In this document: positions 2,541 through 56,219 of the stretch, piece after piece
Layout: each line of letters opens with the position of its first letter
Numbering within the stretch: position 1 is the stretch's first letter
Assembly: GCA_028718185.1 (NCBI GenBank)
Contig: JAQUMH010000001.1
Coordinates: 281,186 to 345,185, forward strand
Source: Elusimicrobiota bacterium
GTDB taxonomy: Bacteria; Elusimicrobiota; UBA8919
Length of the DNA stretch: 64,000 nucleotides
Direction of reading: 5' to 3'
The notes under the pieces: generated by a model
Databases searched by the model: none
The model's input: only the letters and a program-made list of their open reading frames with translations
What the model was told of the DNA's origin: nothing
Made by a program: the position numbers and the translations under genes

Positions 2541-3581
2541 TTATATACCGGAACGAACATCGGAGATAGGCCATATCTTGACAAGAGCAATAAGAAGAGC
2601 AACCAGTACCGGTCCGATAAAAACACCCAATATACCGATTATCTTTATCCCGCCTAACACAGCAACAAGTCCAAGTAAAGGATGCATTGCTGTTCTCCCG
2701 TGAAGAATAAGAATTCGTACCATATGTTCAAGTGCACCTGTTATTAAACCTCCTATAATCATAAATATCATTTTAATCATTGAACCCTTTAGATAAAGAT
2801 ACACAATACCTATCAGCCAGACCGGCACCGCTCCCACGAAAGGAATCCAAGCGAGTATAAACGTAGTTCCCCCTGCTACAAAAACTCCGGGTACTTCCAT
2901 AATAAAAAACATTAATGAAAGTAAAACAGCATCGCTGGTGGATGATGCAAGACTTGCCCATATAGATGAAACCGCAGTATCCTTAAATGACTTGACAAGA
3001 TTATTCTGCACCTGCTTATCAAGAATACCCAGATTAAAAACAAACTTCAAAAACCGCTCACCATCAAGTAACGCGAAGAAGCAGGAAATCACAGACAGTA
3101 CAATCTGCAGAAGAAATATCGGAATATTTTTAGCAAGCTTTAAAATACTTAATTCGACATACTCTAAAGCAGCCAGAATTCCACTATTAATCTTCGTGTT
3201 AGCAGATCCTGTTTCACAAATTGCAGTCTTGACCACCTGCCATCTATTAAGTGAATTAGTTATTATTGAAGGTGAAAAGTCTCTTAGACCGGATATATTG
3301 TGCATTATGGAAACCCCTTGCCTTATTGCCATAATTGAAAAACCGACAATTGGTCCGATAAACAGCACAAGTATAGAAATAGTTACTACTGCTGAGGCAA
3401 GATGAGGCTTCCATTTTTTTAAAATCAACCACTTATAAACCGGATAGAAAAGCATTGCCAGCATTCCGCCAAAAAATATACTAAGGAGAAAAGATCCTAT
3501 CATCCATAAAACAAGTATAAGAAATATACAGAGTATCACCAAATAAGTTATGAAATGTACCCTATTAGTTTTCTCTTCCAT
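2541..3581 (-). CDS. AI-2E family transporter (PerM/DUF20 type)
   Basis: A 346-residue integral membrane protein with the AI-2E/PerM layout: two N-terminal helix pairs, a soluble middle segment (about residues 95-150), then four or more C-terminal helices. The C-terminal region keeps family features (WIPFVGAVPVW, GPVLVALL). Family members have been linked to autoinducer-2 export, Na+/H+ antiport and permease functions, so the substrate is undetermined. A second, divergent member lies at 22295-23299. Confidence 0.85.
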   Translation of the reverse strand: MEEKTNRVHFITYLVILCIFLILVLWMIGSFLLSIFFGGMLAMLFYPVYKWLILKKWKPHLASAVVTISILVLFIGPIVGFSIMAIRQGVSIMHNISGLRDFSPSIITNSLNRWQVVKTAICETGSANTKINSGILAALEYVELSILKLAKNIPIFLLQIVLSVISCFFALLDGERFLKFVFNLGILDKQVQNNLVKSFKDTAVSSIWASLASSTSDAVLLSLMFFIMEVPGVFVAGGTTFILAWIPFVGAVPVWLIGIVYLYLKGSMIKMIFMIIGGLITGALEHMVRILILHGRTAMHPLLGLVAVLGGIKIIGILGVFIGPVLVALLIALVKIWPISDVRSGI

Positions 3582-28124: not shown

Positions 28125-29237
28125 TTACCAACCGCTTATTACCCCACCTTTTACATCAGTATGGGTGCAATTAACAAACATTTTGCCGCTACTTGCAACA
28201 TATCCCCAGTTTCCTAAATCAGTTAAAGCATCTCCATTGTTAAAATCGTTAATATCGTTTGTGTCTCCATGCGCCTGTACACCTAACTTTACAGATGACA
28301 TCTTTGATAAATATTTTGTTTGTACGGGACCGCTTTCATTTGAAATAGCAGCAGCATTTTGTGGATATTGCATGCCTTCCATATCACCATAATAAAGTCC
28401 TATGGCACTTCTTAAATTACCCAAATCACCTTTAGTTTTTCCTTCTTTTGTTCTTCTCATCATTTCTGCAAATTTAGGTATAACTATTGAGGCAAGAATA
28501 CCAATTAATGCCACAACAATCATCAATTCAATTAAAGTAAACCCTGCAGACTTCTTCTTAATAGTCAGAATTGTCCTGCCGGGTAAAATTTCATCAGGTG
28601 GATTAATTTTTTTCACAATACCCCCATTGTCATTTTTAATATCCATTTTATTGCCAACTTGTAATATTAGAATCCCGTTCTCATTTAAAAACGGAAGACA
28701 TAATTTTTTTACTTTTTGTAATTTAGCTGTTGCTCTTGTCACTACTATATCATATTTTGCCGTTGATGATTTAATTGCATTTTCTGCCCTGTCACAAATA
28801 ATTTTTGCTTCTATATCTAATTTCTTGCAAATATGCCTTAAAAATTCTGTCTTCTTTTTTGAAGAATCTAGTAGAGTCAATGATATTTCAGGTAACGCTA
28901 TTTTAACCGGTATTCCTGGAAAACCTGCGCCACTACCAACATCTAACAAGCTATGCCGACCAAGGTCGGCAACTACATCATTCAAATTCCTATATGATAA
29001 ATTAGGATTAGATAGTTTAATACCGGAACTTGTAAAAGCGGCAATAACACTTAGTGAATCCAAAAAATGTTTTTCAATTATTTCTTTATCTGTTGCCGGA
29101 CCTATCAGGTTAATTTTTGAATTCCAATCTTTCAACTCCTGCAGATAAACTGAAAATTGCTCAATTTGCACGGGGTTAAGTTTTATATTTAATAATTCTA
29201 ACCCGTGCAAAAATATTTTTGTAATTTCGGGATTCAT
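28125..29237 (-). CDS. rsmG: RsmG 16S rRNA methyltransferase fused in frame to a type IV pilin-like protein
   Basis: A 370-residue open frame. Residues 1 to about 225 are a complete RsmG (GidB): SKINLIG, HFLDSL, the SAM-binding DVGSGAGFPGIP, LLDSSKKKTEFLR, and the usual end PGRTILTIKK. It should methylate 16S rRNA at the 530-loop guanine. With no stop codon it continues into a prepilin: KKSAGFTLIELMIVVALIG, cleavage expected between G and F, then a 135-residue pseudopilin body ending DVKGGVISGW. The pilin lacks an ATG. A CTG at 28566-28568 has AGGA six bases upstream and would give an ideal short leader, so it may be translated on its own. RsmG also contains a repeat-derived insertion (28951-29000). 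It overlaps the DUF2723 gene by four bases. Confidence 0.85.
   Translation of the reverse strand: MNPEITKIFLHGLELLNIKLNPVQIEQFSVYLQELKDWNSKINLIGPATDKEIIEKHFLDSLSVIAAFTSSGIKLSNPNLSYRNLNDVVADLGRHSLLDVGSGAGFPGIPVKIALPEISLTLLDSSKKKTEFLRHICKKLDIEAKIICDRAENAIKSSTAKYDIVVTRATAKLQKVKKLCLPFLNENGILILQVGNKMDIKNDNGGIVKKINPPDEILPGRTILTIKKKSAGFTLIELMIVVALIGILASIVIPKFAEMMRRTKEGKTKGDLGNLRSAIGLYYGDMEGMQYPQNAAAISNESGPVQTKYLSKMSSVKLGVQAHGDTNDINDFNNGDALTDLGNWGYVASSGKMFVNCTHTDVKGGVISGW
28951..29000. repeat. Palindromic element inserted in frame within rsmG
   Basis: GCCGACC-AA-GGTCGGC (28955-28970), followed by AACTACATCATT and AAATTCCTATA on the plus strand, matches the dispersed elements at 39235, 54657 and 56171. 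In the rsmG frame it encodes residues about 80-95, including YRNLN and VVADLGRHS, between HFLDSL and DVGSGAG, where other RsmG proteins are about 20 residues shorter. Confidence 0.75.
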
Positions 29238-34405: not shown

Positions 34406-34423
34406 GGGCGGGCAAGCCCGCCC
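34406..34423. repeat. GC-rich palindrome GGGCGGGC/GCCCGCCC
   Basis: A perfect 8-bp stem with an AA spacer followed by CTACG, in the 49-base gap between mnmE and the lipoprotein gene. The stem-CTAC layout matches the family at 39235, 54627 and 56171, with a different stem sequence. Confidence 0.65.
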
Positions 34424-34444
34424 CTACGCGTAAACCGATAAAGT

Positions 34445-39234: not shown

Positions 39235-39374
39235 TTAGGCACGCCAAGGCTTGCAACTACAAACATTGAAATTCCTATACATAATGTTAAGCAAAGCTTT
39301 GCTTTGCAGCTACGGACCAATTGATATTGTAGCCGCAGAGCAATAGCTCTGCTAAATATTAAAATTCCTAAACA
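39235..39374. repeat. Composite of palindromic elements (two tail copies and a central hairpin)
   Basis: Copy A (39235-39283) is TTAGGCACGCCAAGG, an imperfect stem, then CAACTACAAACATTGAAATT and CCTATACAT. A central hairpin GCAAAGC-TTT-GCTTTGC spans 39291-39307. Copy B (39335-39374) has GCAGAGC-AATA-GCTCTGC followed by TAAATATTAAAATTCCTA and AACAT. Copy A is nearly identical to 56171-56219. Copy B directly abuts the dehydrogenase stop codon. Confidence 0.8.
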
Positions 39375-44042: not shown

Positions 44043-44187
44043 ATAGGGTTTTAGGGTTTTAGGGTTTTAGGGTTTTAACTCTATGAACTCTATAACTCTA
44101 TAAACTCCATGAACTCTATGAACTCTATAACTCTATAAACTCCATGAACTCTATGAACTCTATAACTCTACAAACTCTATAACTCTT
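44043..44187. repeat. Tandem repeats: TTTTAGGG units and a 35-base satellite
   Basis: Between the two permease genes, four copies of TTTTAGGG (44043-44077) are followed by about three copies of a 35-base unit made of AACTCTATG, AACTCTAT, AACTCTAT and AAACTCCATG; the last copy is diverged. No spacers, so it is not a CRISPR array. It is likely a variable-number tandem repeat. Confidence 0.85.
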
Positions 44188-44191
44188 TCTT

Positions 44192-46636
44192 CTATTCTGT
44201 TGTTCTAAATTGCATTTTGGTTAATCGTTTTAACTGGTATACGGTAAAGCCTAATAAAATAAATCCTAATAACCAGCCCATCGCTGTGGCTACTCCAAAT
44301 TTCAGATATAAAAATGCATTGAAAAATATTTCTAATCCCAAAACCTGTGTTGCTCCTGCCGGTCCGCCTCCTGTCATAGCCAATATAAAATCTGCCGACT
44401 TAAAAGCTCCCACAAAAGCGCCTACAAAATTTATTATAATTAACGGTTTGATTGTCGGAATCGTCACATTCCAGAACTTATACCAGGTATTGGAACCATC
44501 TATAGATGCCGCTTCGTATAAGTCGTCGGGAATAGTTTTTAATGCAGCCAGATAAATAAGACATCCGGGACCCATTGACGCCCAGACAATAGGTATAACA
44601 ACACATAACATTGCAAAGTTTGGATTTCCCAACCATTTTTGGGGAAGAATTTTGCCTGATGAAATCATTAATAAAAACTTGTTTAACAAACCGGAAGCAG
44701 ACGGGTCATAGAAACTCCTCCATAAAAATATTATCACTAAACCACTTATTACATGAGGCAGATAAAACACTATTCTAAAAAATACCTTGCCTTTTGGAAT
44801 TTCATGTAAAAATACTGCTAAAATTATAGGTGCGATGAATCCTAATCCAAGAATAAGAGTTGCAAAATACAAGCTGTGCCACAATGCATCCCAGAAAACC
44901 TTATCAAAAAGTACATTTGCAAAATTGTCTATACCAACAAACGTGCTTCCTCCCATTATCCTGTAATCCATAAAAGCAATAATAGCCCCGCGTATTGTCG
45001 GAACATACTGCCATAATGCCATATTAAACACAGCGGGAACCAGTATTAGATATGCAATCCAGTTTTTTTTGAATCCCCAGCCGGTTTTAGCTCCTTCCGG
45101 TGTAAATACTTTCATTATGTATCTGAACGCTAAAAAGAAAGTTAATACTATAACAGCAGCTAAAAATATAGCTACTTTCCTTCTTAACGCCATTTTCTTA
45201 GGTGGTATTTTCCCGACCATTTTCTCATTTACTTCAGATACAGCAGCATCCAGAATTTCTTTTATGCGTTTTTTTGCAACTTCCGGCGGTTTATTGCCAA
45301 GGTCTTCTACAATCGCGATGTCTAATGGCCTGCTCAAATATGAGTATATCAAATCACAATTTTTACCGTATGGTTCAGGTATGCCGTTAAGTACCGAATC
45401 AGTATATGTTTTTTCCCAACCTTTAGGAATATATTTTAAATATTCCGTATAACCGTATTTTCTAATTTTAACGGGATTAAGAACGTAAGCGAAACCATTT
45501 TCGATAAGTACACGGGTACGTATTCTATTTGCTTCATCACTACCCCAAAAATATATAAATTTCCATGCTGCATCACGAACCTCCGGGTCGGTTACTCCTG
45601 CAAATATACCCATAATAGGAGCATTGAGTACCGAAATCATCAAACCTGTGGGACCTTTTGGCATCGGAGCTATACCTACCAACTCGGGATTTATATTTAA
45701 ATCAGTCATACTTAAATCGTCAAAATAAACCTGGTGCATAGCTAATTTTCCCTGTTCCCATTTCACAACTCCGGTATAAGTAAGTTCTGCGGTACCGGGA
45801 ATAGTTTTTCCATTTTTTACGAACTTTTGTTGTGCTATCCTTGCATAAAAATACACCGCTTCTACTGCTTCCGGTGTATTAAATGCAGCCAGCCATTCCC
45901 CTTTTTTATTTTGCTCAACTGCCCTTGCTCCTGCAGATAAAAGGAAAGAGTAAAAAAATTGAGATGCGCCCGTCGCCGGCTGAAGATATACCCCACAAAT
46001 ACCTTTATCAGGGTTAGTAATTTTACGTGAGTAAGCAAGCATCTCTTCCCAGTTTTCAGGAGGTCTATCCGGATCAAGTCCTGCTTCACGGAATAAATCT
46101 TTGCGGTATTGTAAAACAATAAAACTGGTACCATACGGGAACCCCCACCAGCGTTTTTTTCCGTTTGGTCCTTCGCGGTAAACGACCGGTTTAACGGAAG
46201 TTGGAATTCGTTCTGCCAGTTCTTCTTTAGGCATTTGCTCGATAAATTCATCTAATGGATATAAAAAACCCTGCTGGATATAACTGTCTGATTTGCGGAA
46301 ATTAGTATAAATAATATCAGGGGAAATTCCTCCGGCTATTGCCATAAGAGGACCTACATTCCATTGCCCCTCAACTGCTATACCTCCGGATTGTACAACT
46401 TCTATCCACGGATAATGTTTTTTAAATGCTTTTAAAACTTCCCTATCTCCTTGTGCCCGAGCACTTCCATCATCTTGCCTGGGAAGTTTGACTGAATTTG
46501 ATATTGTTATTTTTACAGTTTTATGATTGGATTCTACGGCGTGGATTTTGACATAAAAAGCACTATATGTCCAAATAGAAATTAATAGAAAACAAAACTT
46601 TACCCGCAACCAAGAATTATTTCTTTTATTTTCCAT
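44192..46636 (-). CDS. Fusion of sugar-binding protein and MalF-like ABC permease
   Basis: An 814-residue protein. An N-terminal hydrophobic segment (about 12-30) anchors a family-1 solute-binding domain (about 45-450) with typical segments PEVAKKRIKEI, GTSFIVLQYRKDLFREAGLD and PPENWEEMLAYSRKI. A helix at about 490 leads to a complete permease domain (about 520-810) with the EAA loop EAASIDGSNTWYKFWNV. Binding protein and channel are therefore one polypeptide. With the permease at 42146 it would form the membrane part of a sugar importer; the ATPase must be supplied from elsewhere. Confidence 0.88.
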   Translation of the reverse strand: MENKRNNSWLRVKFCFLLISIWTYSAFYVKIHAVESNHKTVKITISNSVKLPRQDDGSARAQGDREVLKAFKKHYPWIEVVQSGGIAVEGQWNVGPLMAIAGGISPDIIYTNFRKSDSYIQQGFLYPLDEFIEQMPKEELAERIPTSVKPVVYREGPNGKKRWWGFPYGTSFIVLQYRKDLFREAGLDPDRPPENWEEMLAYSRKITNPDKGICGVYLQPATGASQFFYSFLLSAGARAVEQNKKGEWLAAFNTPEAVEAVYFYARIAQQKFVKNGKTIPGTAELTYTGVVKWEQGKLAMHQVYFDDLSMTDLNINPELVGIAPMPKGPTGLMISVLNAPIMGIFAGVTDPEVRDAAWKFIYFWGSDEANRIRTRVLIENGFAYVLNPVKIRKYGYTEYLKYIPKGWEKTYTDSVLNGIPEPYGKNCDLIYSYLSRPLDIAIVEDLGNKPPEVAKKRIKEILDAAVSEVNEKMVGKIPPKKMALRRKVAIFLAAVIVLTFFLAFRYIMKVFTPEGAKTGWGFKKNWIAYLILVPAVFNMALWQYVPTIRGAIIAFMDYRIMGGSTFVGIDNFANVLFDKVFWDALWHSLYFATLILGLGFIAPIILAVFLHEIPKGKVFFRIVFYLPHVISGLVIIFLWRSFYDPSASGLLNKFLLMISSGKILPQKWLGNPNFAMLCVVIPIVWASMGPGCLIYLAALKTIPDDLYEAASIDGSNTWYKFWNVTIPTIKPLIIINFVGAFVGAFKSADFILAMTGGGPAGATQVLGLEIFFNAFLYLKFGVATAMGWLLGFILLGFTVYQLKRLTKMQFRTTE

Positions 46637-54626: not shown

Positions 54627-54692
54627 GGCAGAGCAAGCTCTGCCACTACAATGTTGATTTAGTTGCCGACCTTGATCGGCACTAACTTGTTA
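54627..54692. repeat. Two palindromic elements between nuoM and nuoN
   Basis: GGCAGAGC-AA-GCTCTGCC (54627-54644) followed by ACTACAATGTTGATT, then AGTTGCCGACCTTGATCGGC (54661-54680) followed by ACTAACTTGT, which runs into the nuoM stop codon (54690-54692). The second unit matches the rsmG insertion with about three differences over 33 bases. Confidence 0.8.
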
Positions 54693-56167: not shown

Positions 56168-56219
56168 AATTTAGGCACGCCAAGGGCGTGCAACTACAAA
56201 CATTGAAATTCCTATACAT
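56168..56219. repeat. Palindromic element between nuoL and nuoM
   Basis: TTTAGGCACGCCAAGGGCGT, then GCAACTACAAACATTGAAAT and TCCTATACAT. The 7-bp stem GCACGCC/GGCGTGC is perfect. It is nearly identical to 39235-39283 and directly abuts the nuoL stop codon at 56219-56221. Confidence 0.85.

Follow-up and report, generated by a model that had tools for sequence, protein, structure and literature searches.

The window analysed here, a stretch of 64,000 nucleotides, belongs to the genome of an uncultured member of the Elusimicrobiota and probably stems from a metagenome-type assembly. On its minus strand it carries an uninterrupted open reading frame (ORF) of 370 aa, the first part of which is RsmG. 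Pfam assigned GidB (E 3.4e-43, in two stretches) and N_methyl (E 7.9e-9) to the 370-aa protein, and the TIGR00138 match of the rsmG product lay above the cut-off. The following features were recognised at the locus:

28125..29237 (-): rsmG ORF, 370 aa, running on in frame into a type IV prepilin domain (Pfam GidB, N_methyl; TIGR00138)
28947..29003 (-): in-frame insert of 57 bp, 19 codons, PNLSYRNLNDVVADLGRHS, without counterpart in any other family member
28954..28976 (-): REP core GTAGTTGCCGACCTTGGTCGGCA with GTAG tag, 1-nt spacer, 8-bp stem and TT loop (GTAG T TGCCGACC TT GGTCGGCA), read from the sequence
28977..28994 (-): TATAGGAATTTGAATGAT, apparent remnant of the outer tail of a full inverted REP pair, from the alignment of complete pairs
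28944..28950 (-): junction of the element 3' end (TAGCTTG) with the TTAGATGTTGG (LDVG) codons of the SAM motif, read from the sequence

The in-frame insert in rsmG

A preliminary description of this DNA had placed a palindromic element in frame inside rsmG, where it was said to encode about 20 extra residues just before the SAM motif. Both statements were confirmed, since the REP core leaves the 370-aa ORF unbroken and the extra residues amount to 19 stop-free codons next to those for LDVG. The codons for HFLDSL and DVGSG lie 141 nt apart in the window versus 84-87 nt in relatives of the same family; the insert size of 57 nt is thus the net gain over the 84-nt state of these relatives, and the exact left edge is deduced from length. 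The only Rfam match near rsmG was a tRNA.

The named near relatives are uncultured Elusimicrobia, and the insert was found in none of the seven family genomes (G001-G007) nor in the outgroup G008. In tblastn searches with the window RsmG, six of the seven relatives give a match that is interrupted at query residues 70-97; the match in G004 is continuous across the insert site, in a sequence that is about 20 residues shorter. Exact copies of the core 22-mer GTAGTTGCCGACCTTGGTCGGC are present in G002 and G005, and none within 3 mismatches was detected in G001 or G004; the inserted residues are absent from the rsmG of all four. Alignment with close relatives, as proposed at the outset, shows the insert in the window alone, and the Pfam GidB match to the window protein is likewise divided in two.

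The AlphaFold2 model (40 sequences) reached a mean pLDDT of 87.7, with most of the core above 90, and its best fold matches in the PDB were RsmG from B. subtilis, T. thermophilus, M. tuberculosis and E. coli. Residues 71-91 are extended and of low confidence (pLDDT below 50 for 83-90) and lie between the helix 65-70 and the strand 96-100. The columns invariant across the 40 homologues, SAM motif included, are kept in the window protein. As modelled, the insert is a disordered loop beside an intact methyltransferase core, and RsmG activity is presumably retained.

A separate observation concerns the 3' end of the gene. In all eight family genomes the rsmG reading frame, lacking a stop, runs on into the sequence of a type IV prepilin (KKKSAGFTLIELMIVV...; window 28125-28547, minus strand; loci L024-L031); RsmG of the outgroup G008 is unfused. 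An internal ATG follows GGAGA some 20-40 codons ahead of GFTLIE in six relatives, and a GTG is found in the window. Translation of the pilin may begin within rsmG, or RsmG may be released by prepilin peptidase.

GTAG hairpins and RAYT genes in the genome

The 3.03-Mb genome contains the core 22-mer GTAGTTGCCGACCTTGGTCGGC 20 times exactly and 44 times at up to 3 mismatches, against 0 matches for the reversed sequence as control, and the element was matched 3 times within the window against 0.03 expected, which rules out chance resemblance. A strict rule, applied to the stretches around search matches, yielded at least 268 distinct GTAG hairpins; raw hairpin matches numbered 273 with the true tag and 0-6 with permuted tags. 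A covariance model (GTAG plus 7-bp stem) returned at least 152 sites, with 150 of 948 candidates scored. Tag and geometry are constant while the stems differ (GCACGCC, GCAGAGC, GCAAAGC, GCCGACC, GCACCGC and others). As in GTAG REPs, the tetranucleotide stands directly 5' of the hairpin, copies are numerous and chiefly extragenic, and the genome holds RAYT genes with adjoining REPs. For the alignment of REPs with MAFFT a placeholder N was put into the 2-nt loops; stem covariation counts were dropped as evidence because the aligned REPs had been chosen for perfect stems. Matches of CCGACNNNNGTCGG at five loci (L001, L004, L005, L010, L013) were excluded as they have no GTAG tag, and those at C2:188773-189536 for their regular spacing.

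Many copies form inverted pairs in the BIME layout, GGCAGAGC-AA-GCTCTGCC-ACTACAATGTTGATGTAGT-TGCCGACC-TT-GGTCGGCA. Like BIMEs and REPINs, the family has REPs arranged as inverted pairs around a short spacer; the rsmG copy consists of one arm plus the outer tail. Outside rsmG, the window contains:

39239..39352: three REPs in a single intergenic spacer (39239-39260 minus, 39291-39313 minus, 39329-39352 plus)
54627..54681: complete inverted REP pair (GGCAGAGC arm 54627-54649 minus, GCCGACC arm 54659-54681 plus)
56175..56197 (-): intergenic REP, GCACGCC stem variant

All three were read from the sequence. The preliminary description had matched the rsmG element to intergenic elements at 39235, 54657 and 56171. 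This held fully for the arm at 54659-54681, which has the same stem variant. The REPs at 39239-39260 and 56175-56197 agree with the rsmG copy in GTAG tag, outer tail (TATAGGAATTT.AATG) and 3' end, but their stem (GCACGCC) is different, so that they are sister REP variants. By the hexamer gene calls, all the matching elements are indeed intergenic or touch a gene end. Two other repeats were noted in the window: a second REP class, a GTAGGGGCGGGCTTGCCCGCCC hairpin at about 34407-34428 (minus) that is also seen beside and inside the RAYT at L021, and a tandem array of AACTCTATG/AACTCTATA-type units at 44077-44198.

Complete pairs read GGAATTTGAAAGATG, 35 nt, TAGTTGCC, and the rsmG copy reads GGAATTTGAATGATGTAGTTGCC. 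Its TATAGGAATTTGAATGAT matches the GGAATTTGAAAGATG adjoining the inner arm of complete pairs, and the 35-nt arm is absent between GATG repeats. Judged by this alignment, the rsmG copy resembles an inverted pair without its first arm, as a deletion between the GATG repeats would leave it.

Of the 268 REPs, 239 fall between genes, 7 reach a gene end and 22 are located within genes; genes were called with a simple hexamer gene caller, by which 0.876 (about 88%) of the window is coding, and REPs located solely in an upstream ORF extension (e.g., L074, L097, L138) were excluded from the coding count. Coding sequence is strongly depleted in REPs relative to its share, as expected if most insertions into genes are lost. 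Two of the 22 (C1:688447, C9:31838) were set aside as they look like chance hairpins. The others lie in RAYTs, rsmG, a large TPR/kelch-type ORF, an ORF that we take to be AsmA-like, and near the termini of four ORFs, one presumably a CusA-like pump; these two names come from reading the sequence. Among the REPs inside genes here, none is a clearer case of insertion into a conserved enzyme domain than that of rsmG. At L098 (C1:684211-685572), six in-frame GTAG hairpins occur in one open frame of 1110 codons with TPR and kelch-like repeats.

Seven Y1_Tnp (Y1/RAYT-type) genes were found in the genome, most of them with GTAG hairpins beside or within them. An NCBIfam scan of four gave NF047646 (REP-associated tyrosine transposase) as best match in each case, above the curated cut-off for L018 and below it for the others. 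Five of the seven ORFs (L018-L022; in L020 as a tandem pair) themselves contain REP hairpins in frame, some between the HuH and Y motifs and some ahead of HuH. REPs in frame within the transposase gene, as a rule between these motifs, have been described for TnpA-REP subclass 2.4 (Quentin et al., 2018, PMC6006769), which the five ORFs resemble in holding in-frame REPs.

The GTAG tag follows the GC skew. In 163 of 223 REPs, and in 64 of the 88 unpaired ones (p about 1e-5), it lies on the strand richer in G, whose sequence is that of the lagging-strand template. Accordingly oriented are contigs C3 and C6 (positive skew, chiefly plus strand) and C1, C2, C5 and C9 (negative skew, chiefly minus strand), and orientation is mixed on C8, where the skew is near zero. 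This pattern is consistent with insertion into the template of the lagging strand. Because almost all neighbouring genes are transcribed in the direction of replication, orientation biases based on replication and on transcription are inseparable.

The RsmG linker in other lineages

The rsmG gene is near-universal and is frequently located close to parAB and the origin of replication. The linker between the HFLDSL helix and Rossmann strand 1 comprised 19-29 residues in 92 of 97 RsmGs and 42-52 in five (window, L167, L169, L032, L036). In L167 and L169, from two Chloroflexi, the long linker contains a long in-frame palindrome of a dispersed repeat, CATTGCGAG..GAAGCAATC (CATTGCGAG...GCAATC), which encodes IASEAKQS...LLA(M/I)T; its left end gave 27 and 78 pattern matches in the respective genomes, both strands counted. 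Sister Elusimicrobia carry heptamer arrays at the site, of the TCTACCG type in L025 and L026, with similar short ones in L024 and L028. TCTACCG-type heptamers are dispersed in G003 and less so in G006, G007 and G004, the counts for the latter three being soft as the low-complexity pattern also matches in controls. The (TCTACCG)n array of L025 coincides with a frame break in G003 and apparently splits rsmG. In a Lachnospiraceae MAG (L229, about 3144-3231) the linker contains TGTTTCACGTGAAACA, presumably a parS-like sequence, whose 14-mers recur in the locus.

The linker thus looks like a permissive and repeatedly occupied site, in a small sample drawn for other purposes. That it is a recurrent landing pad, entered independently by unrelated dispersed elements, we regard as an even bet.

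Origin and meaning of the insert

With high probability, the insert represents a GTAG-tagged REP/BIME (REPIN-like) element that was mobilised in trans by a RAYT and is tolerated in a disordered loop. The REPs would most likely be mobilised by the RAYTs (REP-associated Y1 transposases) of the same genome, which would recognise GTAGTTGCC hairpins and process single-stranded lagging-strand template DNA at GTAG hairpins. A copy would then have entered the linker, with a net gain of 57 nt, probably as a complete inverted pair from which one arm, lying between GATG direct repeats, was then lost, or else as a singlet. The 19 residues would form a disordered surface loop, so that the enzyme could tolerate the insert and selection would not have removed it.

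The idea that these residues belong to an RsmG loop which is ancestral or evolved slowly, and which is repeat-like by chance, draws on the variable length of the linker. It is refuted by the copy number, 22 bp being identical at 19 other places, together with the short linker in all seven family relatives and the outgroup, and we give it practically no weight. Neither finding that was to overturn the preliminary description was made: the element-free G001 and G004 lack the residues, and a whole-genome search with the element retrieved many other copies, 22 of the at least 268 hairpins being inside genes. Its view that a dispersed non-coding repeat colonised rsmG is upheld. The insertion is present in one genome, and an assembly chimera is formally conceivable; against this, the rsmG ORF and the pilin fusion agree with the relatives. 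Retention of the element for a function in rsmG beyond tolerance, as a DNA site, an RNA hairpin controlling the rsmG-pilin mRNA or a protein tag, could be argued from the transcription that the hairpin would undergo and from the other DNA elements in rsmG linkers elsewhere, including the parS-like site. We think it very unlikely, given that the insertion is confined to a single lineage, that the loop is predicted to be disordered, and that sister genomes have unrelated repeats or none at the site, one of the heptamer arrays even breaking the frame.

The preliminary description had likened the element to the Rickettsia palindromic elements (RPEs). The likeness holds for the outcome, in-frame colonisation of a conserved enzyme gene by a palindromic repeat, as RPEs also show; it fails for the structure. 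Descent from an RPE family colonising genes in this lineage is very improbable, considering the RAYT genes with adjoining GTAG hairpins and the insert size of 57 nt; RPE-1 is longer than the rsmG element. RPE-4/6 of R. conorii are tagged by CGTC and have no known dedicated transposase according to Di Nocera et al. (2013, PMC3733652), and RPE membership was rejected on this tag. The GTAG tag, the hairpin population, the RAYT genes and the strand preference that follows GC skew instead identify the element as a REP/BIME. With the Pseudomonas REPINs, as outlined by Bertels and Rainey (2011, PMC3116915), and the E. coli BIMEs it has in common two inverted REPs, a short spacer and a RAYT in the genome; the sequence families are different, and the rsmG copy is one-armed.

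The preliminary description knew of no such report for this lineage. We likewise found none for Elusimicrobia or in rsmG in the open-access literature, so that the claim may hold for the lineage; it does not extend to other bacteria, where GTAG REPs inside genes were catalogued in 2013 and frequently code for 20-30 residues when they form dimers or groups (Di Nocera et al., 2013, PMC3733652). The cases from O. terrae, Thauera, S. maltophilia and others are alike in having GTAG hairpins, single or paired, in frame in conserved genes and otherwise mostly intergenic; Elusimicrobiota and rsmG are not named in the main text of that paper. Intragenic in-frame GTAG REPs and REPs in RAYT genes are therefore already published, and the rsmG and Elusimicrobia cases are, as far as we found, apparently new.

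With this case, the in-frame colonisation of genes by REPs is extended to a member of the Elusimicrobiota and to a conserved enzyme of rRNA modification, and the sister genera provide clean empty sites. The use of the same linker by unrelated repeats in other phyla offers a natural, countable test of the places at which proteins tolerate inserted mobile DNA.
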